Virus record (IMG/VR): IMGVR_UViG_3300007735_000777
Span: 1-64,000 of that record
Direction: 5' to 3' (one strand)
Length of the DNA: 64,000 bases
Origin: a virus
Each line of letters begins with the position of its first letter. Position 1 is the stretch's first letter. The position numbers and the translations under genes are program-made. The notes under the pieces are model-generated. The model was given only the letters and a program-made list of their open reading frames with translations, was not told the DNA's origin and searched no databases. Shown one piece after another: positions 14,056-22,719 of this stretch.

Positions 14056-17000
14056 ATGGCTAAAGACTTTTCACTGGAAGAGGCGCTGACCCCACCGCTT
14101 CAAGAAGAGTTCGGGCTTTCCGATCTGTTCCCGCAAAAAACCCCTGCTGTTGCAAGTTCGCCATCAACGCCGGTTAAAGATAAACGGAACAATCTACCTC
14201 CTGAGTCTGGTGTTATGGGTGGCGAAGACGTTTGGGCACCTGTTGTTGAAGCGCAAAAGCCCGCTCCAAGCATCATGGAAGGACGGAAGATTCCTGAACT
14301 TCCAACCGAAGACCGCGCTGTTGTAAACCCCAAGTTTGTGACTGCGGTTGAAGCGCAACTCAACGCATTACCCGCCGATCAGCGTCAAGCTGCACTCGAC
14401 AAAATGACTCAACGGCCTGATGTATATGGCCGTGCTGCTCGTGCTATTGCTGGTCGGTATGCGGCGATGGATAAATCGTTTGATCTTCCAACGGCGAGGA
14501 AGTTTGATCCCCGTCTTGAAGCTCAGACCGAGCGGTTTGCAGAACAAGGGCTAGAACGCCCAGAAGATTACGCCAAAGCCCAAGCATTGAGTGGGCAATT
14601 GATGCCTGATTTGCAGCAAATGACTGCTGATGTGGTGGGCGAGCAAGCCGACGTTGAAGCACAAAAACGTGCCAAAGAACTTGCCGATGCTGGATTCATG
14701 GGGCGTGTTGGTGCTGGAGTTAGGTCGCAATACACTAAAGCAGGGTTGGGATTACTTCAAGCCTACGCAGATTTAACAGGCGATGAACAATTCAGCAAAA
14801 ATTTAAATAGCGCACGGCGTATTGAGGACGCTAGAGAAGGCGTTATACCCCAAGGTGAAAGCATATTTGAAAAGTCGTTCCAAGGGGCGATGACAAGTTT
14901 AGGCACACAAGCGCCATTTTTAATCGTAAGTGGATTGACTGGTACTTCCGTACCGGTGTTAACCCAAGCTGCAATTCAACAGTTTGGAGATTCATATTCT
15001 GAAGGCCGAGCCGCTGGTTTGTCTGGCTCAGCAGCAGCAGCCCGTGCTGTGCCAACAGCCGCAGCCGAAGTATTTTTTGAGCGTTTTGGTATGACCAAAG
15101 CTCTTGCCGGACTGAAAGCCCATGTTGCCAAGTATGGCGTAGATAGCGTACCCAAGTATGTAGCGGAAGCGATTGCGCATGAACTGCCTTCCGAGTTGGC
15201 AACTACTGCTACGCAATACGGAATTGACGCACTTCCTGAAATTGGGTTGAACAAAAACCCAAATCTGGTTGACCTGTACAAACAGCTTGAAGAAACTTTA
15301 CGCCAAACAATTTTGCAGTCGGGTGTAACCGCAGGCGCGACCATTGGAGTCACCAAAGGTATACAAAAAACTGCGCAGCTACTCGGCCCGCGCAAAGATG
15401 CGTATCAGCAAGACAAAAGCTACGAAGGGTTAGCTGAACTAATTGCTCGGTCAAAAGGGTTTTTAACTCCCGAAGAACGCCAGCAAAGACAACAAAAAGA
15501 AGAATTTGATTTAGGCGATCTTGGCGAAGTAAGTCCCAAAGCTCAACAAGAAGAAGAGTTTAGCTTGGACGATATTGGAGAGACACGCCCCGGTGTTGAG
15601 TTGACGGAAACAACCCCAACCAAGGAAGCCGCTCTTGAAGCGCCAGCAAAGCCTGATCGTGAACAGCGTATCAATATATTGGCGACGCAAATTGTTGAAG
15701 AACAGGGTATCCCTGATGAAGACGCACGCCGTATTGCTACAACCCAAGTAATTGGGCAAGAGATTAAAGAGAAAGAAGCCGCCGCTGCTTTGGCTACAAA
15801 ACCGCAAACGGACAAAGTAAGAGAACGTGCGCAAGAGTTATTGTCAGAAGGTGTAACACTCAACCCTACTGAGGCTATAGATATAGCCACAAAAGAAATT
15901 CAAGAACAGGAAGAAGCGGATGCGCTTGCTGCAAGCGAAGCACAAGGAGAAACAAATGCTGGACAGATTGACACCACAACAAGTGGAGCAGGCATTTCAG
16001 TGGCTGGACAGCCCGGTACAAACGCCCCCACCGCAGGACTTGGAGTCGCTGACACAAGTGGAGTGGTTCCTGCTGGACAGAATGTTGCAGGGGCTACTAA
16101 ACGAAAAAGAACAAAACCGAGTGCAGTAGAAACATACAAAGTTGCCGAAAATAATTTAGACAAAGCTAGACAAGAATTAGATGCCGCTAAAAAAGAATTA
16201 GACGACGCTGGGTATAACGCTACCCCTGAAATGCAGGTACGTCTATCTAAAGCGGAAGAAAATTATCAAATAGCAGATCAACAAGCTAAAGAAGCTTTTG
16301 CCGCAACCCAAGGACAAGTCGCCCCTGCCAAACCTCGTGGCGCACCAGTCAGGCTAACCCCGGAACAAAGAAAACAAAAACTTGCTGAGAATGCACCGGT
16401 GCAAGCAGAAAAAGCTCGTGCTGAACGTGCCCTTGCTCGTATCAACAATACTCTTGATGCGGTGGCCAAACCATTAACTGAAAATGAGTTTGAGTCAGAG
16501 TCTGCGTACAACGACGCAGTACAAGCAACAAGGGCTAAACGCCGCGACGCAATTAAAGAATTACTCATATTGAAAGGTAATCCCGCCCTGCGGGGAACCA
16601 AAGTTGGTGAACGTATCAATGCTGCTTTGTCACGCCCTGATATTTCTGCAAAAGAAAAAGCTGAAATACAAGCTGGCATTGACGCAGTCAACAAAGCCAA
16701 ATTGTCTGGCCCAACTGCGTCGGTTACTACCAAAGAACCAGCAGACGTCAGATACAACAAATTCACCACCGGCGTGCAAGCGGTGTCCCACATTGCTAAG
16801 ACAGGCACAAAGTTTCAACAACGCTTGGCCAAACGCCTTCGCGGGTTTGTAACCAAGGTTCGGTTTGTGGTTCTTGAAGAAGGTCAAGAAGTACCTGAAC
16901 AATTAAAGACACCACGGAATGCCGCTGCATGGGATCGCTCAATTGCGCTTTACGTCGAAAACTACAAGACAGGTGACCAAGTCATATACGTCCGTGGGGC

Positions 17001-20000
17001 ATCTTTTGGCGTCGATCAAGGTATAAACAACCTCACCATCTTGCACGAACTACTGCACGCAGCAACAAACCGCAAGATTGCTTTGGCCAAAGCGTTCATA
17101 GACAAGGGCATCAATCTAAACAGCCCAGTCGTAAAAGCATTCCAAGACCTCATCCGCACAATGAATAGTGCTGGGCGTGCGTACGAAGAATTGGCCAGAC
17201 AAAACAAGTTGCCCATGCACATGGTCAAACTGCGGTACGACGGCGACATCTTTTCTGACCCCCGCGAGTTTGTTGCCTACGGCATGACGGATGAGGTTAT
17301 GCAAGACTTCCTCATGAAGGCTCAAGGTTACGAGGAAGAAGGATCTTATTTCAGCCGGTTTGTTAGAGACTTGCTCAACTTTTTTGGTTTGGGTGATGGC
17401 GACACAAATGCGTTGATAGATTTGGTTGTGGTCACCGACAGTATTCTAAAGAGCCGCCCACCAAAACTCAGGGGTAGAGGCGAACAAGTCAGTCGAACAA
17501 GCAAGGACACAACCCCTGATGTGCAGGGGGAGACCATATCTGCCATGCCAAGTGTCAATCAGAAACGACTAAGCAAAATGCTTGGCACTAAACTGTATGG
17601 TTCACCTGAAAATATTGGTGCGGTATCCATCAAAGAGTTGTTTCAAAATGGTTTTGACGCAATCAAAGAAGGAATGGAAAAAGGGCAGATTACAAAAGGT
17701 AAGGTTGACATAAAGTTAGACGACAGCAACCGCACCATAAGCGTGGTTGATAACGGCCCCGGTATGCCGACCAGCGTGATGGGTAATCAGTTTTTGCAGA
17801 TTGCGGGTACTGTCAAAGGTACTAAGCGTGCATCAGGCGGTCTTGGTGTTGCCAAGATGCTGTTCTTGTTTGAAAACAAAAAACTAGAAATTGTGTCTTT
17901 GCGCGATGGTGTGTTGTCACGTATGGTAACAACTGGGGATGATTTAAAAGAAGCGTTTGATGGTTCTGGGCCTGCTCCACAGATTACCACTTCATCCAAT
18001 CCCGACACTGTCGAGCAATATAAATCCTTGTTTCCCGATGGTCACGGTACGGCTGTGGTTATCCAAGTACCAGAAACATATACGGATACATCTACTGGCG
18101 AAGAAAAGAAAATTAAATTTGATGCGTACGATTTAGAAGATGTTCCAGTCTTAGAGTTCAGTCCTTTATTTGATGACATAGATGTAACGGTAACAAGAAA
18201 TGGGCGTAAAAAAACTTTAAACCTTGGAAACAATTTTCCAATCCAAGACTACACTCCTTTTGCAAATGTAAATTTTGCTTGGGGCACTGCACGTATCTAC
18301 GTAACAAAAGAAAAGGCAAGCCCCCCATACAAAGGCAATACACATATATTGTCAAATGGTTTGTGGCAATTTGATACCAACCTAAAAGATAGACCGGGTT
18401 GGGAAGGTAAGCAAATCCAGCGTACTTTCTACATTGATGTATCCCCTGCCCCTGATGTAAAACCAGAAGACGCTGCGTACCCGTTTGATTTAAACCGGCA
18501 AAATTTTTCACAGCAAGCTGGGCAAGATTTCCAGAAAATCTTTAACTACATCACCGCCATATACGGCCAACTTGATTTAGCCGCAAGCGTAAAGAACTTT
18601 GGTACTGTTCAATATGTGAACAGCGATGGTTCGTTGACTACCGCAGAAACATTGGAGCCTAACGCCCCAATGACAGACAACGCCTTTACGCTTATCAAAC
18701 CCGGCGATGAAGTTGAAGTTAGAGATGGTGTGCTGTATGTCAATAACCGTGGACTTCCTGAGTTGTCTATTGACGACTTAAAAAATACTGCGCCACGTCT
18801 TGAAGAATTAACCATACCGCAAGATCAAATTGACCCACAAAAGGTCATGGTTCATGACAACACCACATATGTAAGAGTTAGTTCAGACCCTGTAGATACG
18901 TTACTTGACTTTACACTTAGCCCAGAAGCAGGGGAAGAGTTTCTACTCAAATTTGATTCAAACAACAAAGTAATTGGGCTTGATGTTTTTAGCCTTGATA
19001 AAGATGGATATAGAACTTTTGTAGAAAGAACATTAACGGGTGATGCTAAATCCCTTTTAAACCAATTAGAAAACCTTGGGTGGTTGCCTGAGTCAATGAA
19101 GAGTGGGGGCGAGTCTCTCTCAGACAAAGCACGTGCGCAGTTTGGTGACAAACGCTACGATAGATACTTGGCAACGATTGGAAAGACTTTCCAAACACTT
19201 CGTAATGCCTTGGTTGCTTCTGGGAATGAATACGGTTCTCTTGCCGAAGAAGCAATCGGCACAAGTATTGACAACGAATATTATGGTGTCAGCATCATAG
19301 TACCGTTCCGTGGTATGTTCATCAACCCCGCAACAACTGATTTGCGTGGTAGCCCGGCTGAGATTGCGCTGTCTATGATTGGCACAATGATTCATGAGTT
19401 GGCGCACTTTAGGGTACGCAGTCACGGTGCTGATTTTGCAAGCGAAATGCAGCGCGTAATGGTGCTGTTGAAGACTTCTCCAAACATCAACTTGGATTCA
19501 CTGGAGAAAAATTTAACCGCCCATATCAAAGCCAACCAAGATATTTTTGATTTTCTAAACAAGGAGTTCCGTGATGGAAATCTCAAGCCTCGTGGAAACC
19601 GCTTCAAAGACTCTGGCGGGTACCAGCAAATCGAGAATGAAGGCTCTCCTAAGCCAATGGAAAGCACTGGCGGAACAGGAGACGAATGGCGACCCAGCTT
19701 ATCCGCAAGCACTGGGCAAGGCACTGGGGGTGCTGGAAAAGTCGGCATCGGTCAAGGACTTAATAACGAAGCTCAAGAAGTCGGAGATGCAGTAAGGACT
19801 CAGAAAGAAGTTGATGCGGCGGTCAAGGTTGCTGCCGAACAATTTGTTGAGTCCAAAAAAGGATACGACTTCTCCAAAGCCGTAACTGCGCTTCAGATGC
19901 TGCAACACCCAACTGAGGTCATACCCGCGCTTAAAGCTCTTTGGAAACGCGCAACATTGGCGCAACGTAACGCTTTGGTCAAACTACCCACTACTGAATT

Positions 20001-22719
20001 CTTAGCCGACTGGGGTGGAGATGCGGTGCCAGAGTTGAAAAATACTTCCCGCCTATTGCGTTTGATGAACGGCATGACACTTCAGTTGCTGAAGTCGGCT
20101 GGAGAATTGACCAAAGAAATTGAACGAGCATTCCGTGCCGACCACACACTACGGGCTAAGTTGGACAAAATCACAATTACGTCTACGCTTGCGGAAGTAG
20201 ACCCATCTGACCCATTGGCCAAAGTGCGTAATGCCGAGTTGGACAAACAATATAAAGAACTTGGGGCGGACGGCCAACGTGTGTACAAACGTGTCAAAGA
20301 ACATTTTGAACGCTTGTCTCAGTACTTTACCCAGTTACTTGACGATCAGATCACCGACTCTAAATTACCAATTGCAGAAAAAGCAAACCTGATGAAAAAA
20401 ATCAGGTCAATCTACGAAACCGGTAGCAAAATTACACCGTACTTCCCTTTGGTGCGTGTTGGAGACTTTTGGTTATCAATTGGCAAAGGTAAAACCCGTA
20501 AGTTCTTCATGTTTGAAACGGCTGAAGAACGTGATAACGCCATGCAAAAGTTTGCGGATGAGCGCATCAAACAAAAGCCGGATGAGTCCAACTCGCAATT
20601 TGAAGAACGCCGTGCTGACAATTTGTTGGAGTTGCTGACCGATCAAGAATTTGTGCACGGCAACAATATCGCTGACTTGCGTAACCGCAGTGCAGACAGC
20701 AGTGCGCTGTTGATGGAAATTTTTAACGCAATCGACAGTGCTAACCTTGGTGAAACTGAAGCAAAAGAAACGCTCAAGGATGCGGTGTATCAGGTGTACT
20801 TGCAGTCGATGCCAGATCAAAGTTTTCGCAAGCAGTTTATTCACCGCAAAGGTATTACGGGTTTCCGCCCAGACCTTTTGCGCAACGTGGCGCATACCAC
20901 CGCAAAAATGGCAACTCAGCTTGCGCGTATCAAGTACGCTCCCTTGCTGCGCAATTCTATGTCGGCGGCTAGAGATTCAATTTCAAACCGACCAACGTAC
21001 GAACCATTTGTTACCGAAATGGGTAACCGAGTACGTGCATCTTTGGGGGCATTCCAACAAGGTACAGCAGCTAAGATTGTTGGGCTGATTAACAAAGCTT
21101 CATACATTTTCTACTTGAGTGGCGCAAGTTCCGCGCTGTTGCAGCCGTTGAGTATTTTTCAGACTGGTATGCCGGTGCTATCTAGGTATGGAACGGTCAA
21201 CGCCACCCGTGAGATGGGGCGTATGATGAAAGTGTGGCAACAGTTTGGCGCATACAAAGACAACAAAGATGGCACTAAATCATGGGTTGCCCCTTCTATT
21301 GAGCATTCAAAAGCGTTGACCCCAGAGGAACGCCGAGCAGTTCGTGAGATGCTGGCTCGTGATGTAACCACGTCTACGTATGCCAGCGCAGTGTTTGAGT
21401 ACAAGAAAACCCCGACTGAAAACTTGTCATCTCCCATAGCGAGCTTTAGCAAGTCAACAGTGGATATGCTGGTACTTGGTGGGTTGATGCACTCAACCGA
21501 ACGGCTCTCTCGTGAGATGATGTTCATGTCTTCTTTCCGTTTGAACCGTCAGGCGGGTAAAACTTTTGAACAGGCCATTGAGCAAGCGACATACGACACC
21601 AATGAAGCTCTTGGCAACTATGGCGACTACAACCGTCCGGGCTTCATGCGCAGTCTACCGGGCAAGGTGCTGACTCAGTTCATGATGTACCCGCTGCATG
21701 TGACTTTGTTTATGCTGAAGAACTTTAAAGAAATGGCCATCCCAATGGATGGGCGCACCCGTGCGGAAGCGGCTAAGAAATTCTTTGGCACTATGGGTAC
21801 ATCGTTTGTTCTTGCTGGCGCTGTCGGCCTCCCCATGTTCAGCGTAGTCATGGGCTTGCTTGGTTGGGCATGGGAAGCGATGAAAGACGATGACTGGCCA
21901 GAAGATATGAAGTCTATGGACTTTGAGTTCTGGTTCCGTACCGTTTGGCTTGAAGAGCAGCTTGGTGGCGTAAGAATTGGGGATAAAAAACTCTCAGACA
22001 TTGTGGAGCGTGGAGTTGCAAACGCTTTGACTGGGCTTGATATTTCAGGTCGTACCAGCCTCAATAATTTGTGGATACGTGAGCAGAAAGAAACTAAAGG
22101 GGTCAAAGACGAGATTATGGCGCTTGCTTTGGAAAAAGCTGGCCCCGGCGTAAACATGTTTGTGTCTCTGGCTGAAGGCATAGAAGCGTTTTATCGTGGT
22201 GACATCAACAAGGGAGTACAGAAGACAACCCCTGCTGGATTTCGCAATTTCAAAACTGCATACGACTTGTTTACTGAAGGCGCAAAGGACAACAAAGGAA
22301 CAAAGATTCTGTCTAAAGATGCGTTCAGTACCGGCGTGTTGATCGGGCAGGCCGTCGGCTTCCGTTCTGATCTGCTGGCCAATACCCAGTATGTCAACTT
22401 CAAAGTAATTGGTTTGCAGCAGAAGATTGAGAACGAACGCACTCGGTTGATGAACGACGTCGAAAAACAATTCCGCAATAAGGAGTTCAAGAAGTTTAAT
22501 GAGCTTGTAAACAAAGACGTGATTAAGTTCAACAAACGCTACCCCACGTTTGAAATCACAGACGAAGAAATATTGGCTTCGATTGAAAAACGCGCAGAGC
22601 AACGTGCCGAGTCGTGGCGCGGGGTGTCGCTCACCGACAAGAACGCAACCTTGTTTACCAAAGCCCTCAAACCTTCTCGCCAAGCGGCTAAAGAAGCAGA
22701 ACAGGCAGGGCGCAAATAA
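14056..22719 (+). CDS. Giant polyvalent internal virion protein with zincin and GHKL ATPase domains
   Basis: 2887 residues, the largest gene here. Visible parts: a hydrophobic patch near residues 277-310; Glu/Lys-rich linkers; HELLH at 997-1001 (zinc protease-like); a GHKL ATPase domain with Asn1198 (N box, ELFQNGFDA), DNGPG at 1232-1236 and GGLGVAK at 1261-1267; HELAHFRVRSH at 1780-1790, an SprT/WLM-like zinc motif; and C-terminal hydrophobic stretches near 2340-2375 and 2577-2612 of the type found in large polyvalent phage proteins. Such proteins are thought to be packaged and ejected into the host. Two linkers (about 634-691 and 1840-1914) are low-complexity and overlap possible nested genes. 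Confidence 0.85.
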   Translation: MAKDFSLEEALTPPLQEEFGLSDLFPQKTPAVASSPSTPVKDKRNNLPPESGVMGGEDVWAPVVEAQKPAPSIMEGRKIPELPTEDRAVVNPKFVTAVEAQLNALPADQRQAALDKMTQRPDVYGRAARAIAGRYAAMDKSFDLPTARKFDPRLEAQTERFAEQGLERPEDYAKAQALSGQLMPDLQQMTADVVGEQADVEAQKRAKELADAGFMGRVGAGVRSQYTKAGLGLLQAYADLTGDEQFSKNLNSARRIEDAREGVIPQGESIFEKSFQGAMTSLGTQAPFLIVSGLTGTSVPVLTQAAIQQFGDSYSEGRAAGLSGSAAAARAVPTAAAEVFFERFGMTKALAGLKAHVAKYGVDSVPKYVAEAIAHELPSELATTATQYGIDALPEIGLNKNPNLVDLYKQLEETLRQTILQSGVTAGATIGVTKGIQKTAQLLGPRKDAYQQDKSYEGLAELIARSKGFLTPEERQQRQQKEEFDLGDLGEVSPKAQQEEEFSLDDIGETRPGVELTETTPTKEAALEAPAKPDREQRINILATQIVEEQGIPDEDARRIATTQVIGQEIKEKEAAAALATKPQTDKVRERAQELLSEGVTLNPTEAIDIATKEIQEQEEADALAASEAQGETNAGQIDTTTSGAGISVAGQPGTNAPTAGLGVADTSGVVPAGQNVAGATKRKRTKPSAVETYKVAENNLDKARQELDAAKKELDDAGYNATPEMQVRLSKAEENYQIADQQAKEAFAATQGQVAPAKPRGAPVRLTPEQRKQKLAENAPVQAEKARAERALARINNTLDAVAKPLTENEFESESAYNDAVQATRAKRRDAIKELLILKGNPALRGTKVGERINAALSRPDISAKEKAEIQAGIDAVNKAKLSGPTASVTTKEPADVRYNKFTTGVQAVSHIAKTGTKFQQRLAKRLRGFVTKVRFVVLEEGQEVPEQLKTPRNAAAWDRSIALYVENYKTGDQVIYVRGASFGVDQGINNLTILHELLHAATNRKIALAKAFIDKGINLNSPVVKAFQDLIRTMNSAGRAYEELARQNKLPMHMVKLRYDGDIFSDPREFVAYGMTDEVMQDFLMKAQGYEEEGSYFSRFVRDLLNFFGLGDGDTNALIDLVVVTDSILKSRPPKLRGRGEQVSRTSKDTTPDVQGETISAMPSVNQKRLSKMLGTKLYGSPENIGAVSIKELFQNGFDAIKEGMEKGQITKGKVDIKLDDSNRTISVVDNGPGMPTSVMGNQFLQIAGTVKGTKRASGGLGVAKMLFLFENKKLEIVSLRDGVLSRMVTTGDDLKEAFDGSGPAPQITTSSNPDTVEQYKSLFPDGHGTAVVIQVPETYTDTSTGEEKKIKFDAYDLEDVPVLEFSPLFDDIDVTVTRNGRKKTLNLGNNFPIQDYTPFANVNFAWGTARIYVTKEKASPPYKGNTHILSNGLWQFDTNLKDRPGWEGKQIQRTFYIDVSPAPDVKPEDAAYPFDLNRQNFSQQAGQDFQKIFNYITAIYGQLDLAASVKNFGTVQYVNSDGSLTTAETLEPNAPMTDNAFTLIKPGDEVEVRDGVLYVNNRGLPELSIDDLKNTAPRLEELTIPQDQIDPQKVMVHDNTTYVRVSSDPVDTLLDFTLSPEAGEEFLLKFDSNNKVIGLDVFSLDKDGYRTFVERTLTGDAKSLLNQLENLGWLPESMKSGGESLSDKARAQFGDKRYDRYLATIGKTFQTLRNALVASGNEYGSLAEEAIGTSIDNEYYGVSIIVPFRGMFINPATTDLRGSPAEIALSMIGTMIHELAHFRVRSHGADFASEMQRVMVLLKTSPNINLDSLEKNLTAHIKANQDIFDFLNKEFRDGNLKPRGNRFKDSGGYQQIENEGSPKPMESTGGTGDEWRPSLSASTGQGTGGAGKVGIGQGLNNEAQEVGDAVRTQKEVDAAVKVAAEQFVESKKGYDFSKAVTALQMLQHPTEVIPALKALWKRATLAQRNALVKLPTTEFLADWGGDAVPELKNTSRLLRLMNGMTLQLLKSAGELTKEIERAFRADHTLRAKLDKITITSTLAEVDPSDPLAKVRNAELDKQYKELGADGQRVYKRVKEHFERLSQYFTQLLDDQITDSKLPIAEKANLMKKIRSIYETGSKITPYFPLVRVGDFWLSIGKGKTRKFFMFETAEERDNAMQKFADERIKQKPDESNSQFEERRADNLLELLTDQEFVHGNNIADLRNRSADSSALLMEIFNAIDSANLGETEAKETLKDAVYQVYLQSMPDQSFRKQFIHRKGITGFRPDLLRNVAHTTAKMATQLARIKYAPLLRNSMSAARDSISNRPTYEPFVTEMGNRVRASLGAFQQGTAAKIVGLINKASYIFYLSGASSALLQPLSIFQTGMPVLSRYGTVNATREMGRMMKVWQQFGAYKDNKDGTKSWVAPSIEHSKALTPEERRAVREMLARDVTTSTYASAVFEYKKTPTENLSSPIASFSKSTVDMLVLGGLMHSTERLSREMMFMSSFRLNRQAGKTFEQAIEQATYDTNEALGNYGDYNRPGFMRSLPGKVLTQFMMYPLHVTLFMLKNFKEMAIPMDGRTRAEAAKKFFGTMGTSFVLAGAVGLPMFSVVMGLLGWAWEAMKDDDWPEDMKSMDFEFWFRTVWLEEQLGGVRIGDKKLSDIVERGVANALTGLDISGRTSLNNLWIREQKETKGVKDEIMALALEKAGPGVNMFVSLAEGIEAFYRGDINKGVQKTTPAGFRNFKTAYDLFTEGAKDNKGTKILSKDAFSTGVLIGQAVGFRSDLLANTQYVNFKVIGLQQKIENERTRLMNDVEKQFRNKEFKKFNELVNKDVIKFNKRYPTFEITDEEILASIEKRAEQRAESWRGVSLTDKNATLFTKALKPSRQAAKEAEQAGRK
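15956..16129 (+). CDS. Possible overprinted small gene inside the giant gene (57 residues)
   Basis: Lies in the +1 frame of the giant gene. A strong SD (AAGGAG, 15944-15949) is 6 bases before the ATG. The product is ordinary protein-like (LTPQQVEQAFQWLDSPVQT, then VEWFLLDRMLQGLL), helical and well composed, whereas the giant frame across the same bases is low-complexity Gly/Thr/Ala linker. That combination is what overprinting predicts. I have an impression of similar free-standing small phage proteins but could not check it. Confidence 0.55.
   Translation: MLDRLTPQQVEQAFQWLDSPVQTPPPQDLESLTQVEWFLLDRMLQGLLNEKEQNRVQ
19574..19795 (+). CDS. Possible second overprinted gene inside the giant gene (73 residues)
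   Basis: Also in the +1 frame, with SD AAGGAG at 19561-19566 and 7 bases to the ATG. The product (MEISSLVETASKTLAGTSKS, then KALLSQWKALAEQE) is amphipathic and helical with a Lys-rich end. The giant frame here is again low complexity (GSPKPMESTGGTGDEW, GTGGAGKVGIGQG). Function unknown. It could alternatively be a chance frame left by biased codon composition. Confidence 0.48.
   Translation: MEISSLVETASKTLAGTSKSRMKALLSQWKALAEQETNGDPAYPQALGKALGVLEKSASVKDLITKLKKSEMQ

Follow-up and report, generated by a model that had tools for sequence, protein, structure and literature searches.

Positions 15956-16129 of an uncultured phage genome very probably hold a genuine protein-coding gene, P, that lies wholly within a giant gene and is read in its +1 frame, the same DNA serving in the giant frame as a low-complexity hydrophilic linker. 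The window, by which we mean the whole stretch of DNA analysed, covers 64,000 of the 65,911 bases recorded for this uncultured virus. The virus is a tailed phage, and its genes include those for terminase, portal, capsid, DNA polymerase and proteins of the ejection type. P is encoded on the plus strand by 57 codons and a stop codon, with the translation MLDRLTPQQVEQAFQWLDSPVQTPPPQDLESLTQVEWFLLDRMLQGLLNEKEQNRVQ, and its ATG is preceded at a distance of 6 nt by the Shine-Dalgarno sequence AAGGAG (15944-15949, plus strand). A sequence-only reading of the same DNA had proposed that AAGGAG and ATG open a +1-frame gene of this length, and the open reading frame is exactly as it was described there. 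Its further proposal that the small gene is real agrees with the homologues, the maintained frame, the purifying selection, the drop in synonymous divergence that the giant gene shows in the overlap, and the conserved start signal reported below.

The host gene of P (14056-22719, plus strand) encodes a polyvalent protein of 2887 amino acids, which contains two zincin-like HExxH segments, a GHKL/Hsp90-like ATPase, an LPD39-like segment and a C-terminal PLxRFG/DarB-like domain. The matches to HATPase_c (1.7e-4) and LPD39 (3e-5) are both below the Pfam cut-off; the protein matches the DarB-like family phrog_10089 with 1.3e-51, and its PLxRFG domain (NF032893) scores 339 bits, above the curated cut-off of 100. 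The adjacent upstream gene resembles that of a DNA ejection protein (phrog_4287, 1.1e-6). Judged by its family and by its position after this gene, the giant protein would be of the ejected type and delivered into the host together with the DNA.

A scan of IMG/VR with P as the query matched 95 stretches, 80 of which were kept, and a degenerate DNA pattern for PPxxLxxLxxxEWxxLxxxLxxL matched at least 120 stretches. The homology search for the small product that had been suggested yielded 204 environmental loci, each with exactly one P in an HMM profile search; some loci come from the same contigs, and 136 are non-redundant. Their identity to the P of the window ranges from 82% down to 27%, and even at 27% the hydrophobic positions and the length of the protein are kept. 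The giant frame surrounds P at the same +1 offset in 80 of 80 loci in each of two scans and is open there for hundreds to thousands of codons. In 200 of the 204 loci it extends past both ends of P; of the remaining four, three lie at the end of a contig and the fourth is L145. Instead of a frame that lacks homologues or is disrupted by stops in relatives, we found a frame with many homologues that is kept throughout. In L145 (12027-12200), the sole such case among the 204 loci, P is intact and the giant frame carries one stop inside the overlap.

No stand-alone P was detected in IMG/VR, where all matches of the degenerate DNA pattern were nested, nor in 50,697 phage records, against which six family or consensus queries and one hand-made consensus were run by tblastn. 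In 84,980 prokaryotic genomes (257 billion bases) there was no P; the 21 matches of the pattern were all due to chance, which shows that the pattern does not itself create the family. When records were chosen by terminase similarity alone, 20 of 22 contained P, including all eight of at least 60 kb. The two records without P appear to be incomplete contigs: one breaks off within the gene that directly precedes the giant gene, while the second has no match to this neighbouring ejection gene and therefore probably does not cover the giant region. Across these genomes P is apparently a core, nearly universal, single-copy gene of a common group of uncultured phages.

The start signal is conserved together with the frame. 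Among the 136 non-redundant loci, a Shine-Dalgarno sequence of at least 4 nt with proper spacing precedes 98% of the P starts, compared with 17% of the background starts, for which 12,189 other +1-frame ATG and GTG codons in the giants were used; for sequences of at least 6 nt the values are 53% and 0.6%. Most P genes start with ATG and some with GTG, and a minority are ambiguous (CTG, ATA or none obvious). In L037 (at 10001) and in the P start regions of L162, L052, L054 and L068 a Shine-Dalgarno sequence is present with CTG, ATA or no clear start, which could be explained by the use of a rare start codon or by displacement of the start.

Selection was estimated from 54 independent close pairs. 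In the P frame pN/pS is 0.24 (bootstrap 0.20-0.29), indicative of purifying selection, whereas the giant frame yields 0.33 upstream of P, 0.38 downstream and 2.35 in the overlap. The synonymous-site constraint that was to be looked for in relatives is pronounced: the synonymous divergence pS of the giant frame falls about five-fold, from 0.38-0.43 in the flanks to 0.077 in the overlap. The +1 frame of the flanks, with pN/pS of 1.0-1.2, shows no selection of the P type. From the contrast in pN/pS and pS between the frames it follows that the overlap evolves as P and not as the giant gene. Substitutions are concentrated at the third position of the P codons (210, 111 and 365 at positions 1, 2 and 3). 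The giant frame is kept open as well: when P was redrawn synonymously in 15 divergent lineages, the giant frame escaped stops in only 0.05-19% of the draws, depending on the lineage.

In the giant frame the overlap comprises codons 634-691 (15955-16128, plus strand) and reads NAGQIDTTTSGAGISVAGQPGTNAPTAGLGVADTSGVVPAGQNVAGATKRKRTKPSAV, which is rich in Gly, Thr, Ala, Pro and Val. The sequence-only reading had stated that the giant protein becomes a low-complexity Gly/Thr linker at P and that the small gene shapes this linker, and the composition bears out both points. Gly, Thr, Ala, Pro, Ser, Gln and Val make up 78% of the overlap but 47% of the rest of the giants; ordinary codons for the P protein, shifted by one base, would by themselves yield 61%. 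Hydrophobic residues account for 4.5% of the overlap, against 16% expected from P alone. The differences between 78% and 61% and between 4.5% and 16% indicate that the giant protein's need for a hydrophilic tether in turn shapes the codon choice of P. An AlphaFold model of amino acids 480-900, based on a shallow alignment of 4 sequences, has a coil with pLDDT below 50 at amino acids 630-685 and confident helices on either side, so that the overlap is predicted to be a disordered linker. Apart from staying open and hydrophilic, the overlap displays no detectable amino-acid constraint in the giant frame.

The giants of different phages have little in common beyond P in this half of the protein, and no part of their N-terminal half is as conserved as the P segment. 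The 200-amino-acid modules upstream and downstream of P fall into many non-homologous groups that are combined in different ways. In 197 pairs, which are not fully independent, the alignment passes through P; in 66 of them the homology of the giants breaks off between -3 and +8 codons from the end of P, and in 37 of these it stops exactly at the last overlap codon. The frequent loss of homology at the stop codon of P indicates that P marks a joint at which domains are exchanged. This claim is based on protein alignments because an ungapped identity profile exaggerates the drop in identity at the edge of P where linkers are rich in indels. In a comparison of L062 with L067, about 147 amino acids of giant sequence are inserted exactly at the stop codon of P; this difference between close relatives reflects a domain recently gained or lost at the joint. 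Further clear breaks of homology at P are found between L153 and L166 and between L196 and L092. The P DNA could be either an active crossover site or a mere survivor, breaks inside P being lethal.

The Gly, Thr and Ala codons of the giant gene might simply leave the +1 frame open without a product being made. When the giant codons of the window were redrawn synonymously, the P frame did stay open in 15% of the draws, a value that applies to this window alone, and a single open alternative frame of 57 codons is here not remarkable by itself; its conservation, however, is far beyond chance. The 204 loci, the protein-type selection in the P frame, the synonymous constraint on the giant gene and the conservation of the Shine-Dalgarno sequence refute a chance open reading frame, which we consider practically out of the question. 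Ribosomes could also enter the P frame by +1 frameshifting from the giant frame, in which case a truncated N-terminus of the giant protein would be fused to P. Shine-Dalgarno-like sites can stimulate frameshifting, in many loci no stop closes the P frame for some distance ahead of P (median 22 codons), and a minority of the loci have no obvious start. Arguing against this mechanism are the Shine-Dalgarno sequences located at initiation spacing from ATG or GTG in most P loci, the in-frame stops no more than 10 codons upstream of P in 33 of 193 loci, and the constancy of P next to N-terminal giant modules that are non-homologous between loci. Frameshifting is therefore improbable, and these features point to translation of P by internal initiation. 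Even less probable is a conserved nucleic-acid element, such as an RNA structure or a packaging or recombination site, in place of a protein gene. The P segment would suit such an element in being the most conserved part of the N-terminal half and in marking module joints, but the clustering of changes at the third codon position, the low pN/pS, the hydrophobic positions and length retained by the most divergent homologues, the conserved Shine-Dalgarno sequence and start, and the lack of an Rfam match to the segment speak for a protein.

The origin of the arrangement is a separate matter. P may be the older gene, the giant gene having come to overprint it through a fusion, in the other frame, of the genes on its two sides; such an origin is compatible with the view that the present-day anatomy is best explained by a protein-coding P nested in a giant gene. 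In keeping with such a history, the product of P is normally composed and predicted to be folded, the giant overlap is an unconstrained linker predicted to be disordered, and the flanks of the giant gene are exchangeable on both sides. Synonymous codon preference nevertheless does not favour P as the older frame, P being the one nearer to the usage of the flanks in only 51 of 131 loci, and the searches for a stand-alone P were negative. We regard a greater age of P as rather unlikely, although it deserves consideration.

Nesting is not confined to P, as a second gene, Q, shows the same pattern. Q (19574-19795, plus strand) encodes 73 amino acids in the +1 frame, is preceded by AAGGAG (19561-19566, plus strand) and lies in the linker that follows the second HExxH/zincin segment. 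A scan of synonymous divergence along the giant gene revealed two equal minima, at P and at codons 1835-1891, which correspond to Q; the value at these minima is 0.075, compared with a mean of 0.40 for the giant gene. Homologues of Q were found in 12 IMG/VR loci, all nested at +1, and another occurs near the end of the giants in L122 and L161. In a third stretch of the window (18868-19038) synonymous divergence is 0.13 against the same mean, and no overlapping gene was identified there. In L071 (codons 747-810 of the giant frame) and L026 (codons 300-342) single close pairs revealed +1 open reading frames that are preceded by Shine-Dalgarno sequences and have low synonymous divergence; they could be further nested genes or chance occurrences.

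The P product is predicted to be a small two-helix protein. Its modelled fold (pLDDT 85) is a hairpin of helices 7-18 and 34-53 with a Pro-rich loop between them. Searches of Pfam, PHROGs, NCBIfam, PADLOC and PDB sequences gave no significant match, the PHROGs hits being limited to weak ones to phrog_7471 and phrog_5825 (E 0.07-0.26). No match was obtained in cultured phages or predicted viral folds, the best E of the fold search being not below 3.8. In the mechanism that we propose, P would be translated by internal initiation at its own Shine-Dalgarno sequence and ATG on the giant mRNA and presumably be made together with the giant protein. Read in the giant frame, the same DNA would yield a flexible hydrophilic tether, the exact sequence of which would be unimportant as long as it stays open and avoids hydrophobic residues. 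As breaks in P would not be tolerated, the points at which giant domains are swapped or inserted would pile up at its edges, which would turn P into a constant joint between variable modules. Genome position suggests, tentatively, that P acts with the giant or ejection proteins as a partner in their assembly, folding or packaging; such a role is the likeliest because P is nearly universal, single-copy, always in the giant gene and presumably co-made with it. Nested P might even combine three roles, as a core small protein, as the tether frame of an ejected polyvalent protein and as a fixed frame-preserving homology segment for the exchange or insertion of domains, with Q as a second such joint, but to this wider scheme we give rather less than even weight.

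P is absent from every annotated library searched. Since gene callers usually skip fully nested genes, P is normally missed, and an apparently core gene would thus be missing from the annotation of a common group of uncultured phages. P also provides an unusually clean data set on overlapping genes, in which one frame is constrained and the other is free save for openness and hydrophilicity, across more than 100 divergent genomes. The linkers of other giant phage genes are worth examining, as the synonymous-constraint scan performed here disclosed Q at once.

By terminase (49-58% identity to HTVC023P, HTVC027P, 023Pt_psg01, DSL-LC04 and MinM2) the HTVC023P-type pelagiphages and their relatives are the closest cultured or named genomes, and their genome size is similar. 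More distant than the records chosen by terminase similarity, they differ in that the HMM found no P in the examined stretches of these five genomes, so that P is not essential to the wider group. The paper on the HTVC023P type (PMC9599517) does not mention nested genes. With its C-terminal PLxRFG/DarB-like domain, its HExxH segments and its exchangeable domains, the giant protein resembles the polyvalent, PLxRFG (NF032893) and DarB-like antirestriction (phrog_10089) proteins. No P was present in the examined stretches of the DarB-like genes of phages douglas 12A4, LASTA and Atu_ph08. Polyvalent proteins of phages were described by Iyer et al. 2017 (PMC5512222), in the text of which the words "overlap" and "linker" are both absent, and no report of nested genes in polyvalent-type proteins was found in the open-access literature.

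P shows no similarity to any described family by sequence search, but its arrangement has precedents. Textbook examples of overprinted or embedded phage genes are B, E and K of phiX174 and Rz1 within Rz of lambda. Like these, P is a small gene contained entire in the alternative frame of a longer one; it has a start signal of its own, and selection acts on both frames. Unlike these, it is enclosed by a giant gene for a domain-shuffling polyvalent protein, the sequence of which on either side of P is exchanged from one relative to another, whereas P itself persists.
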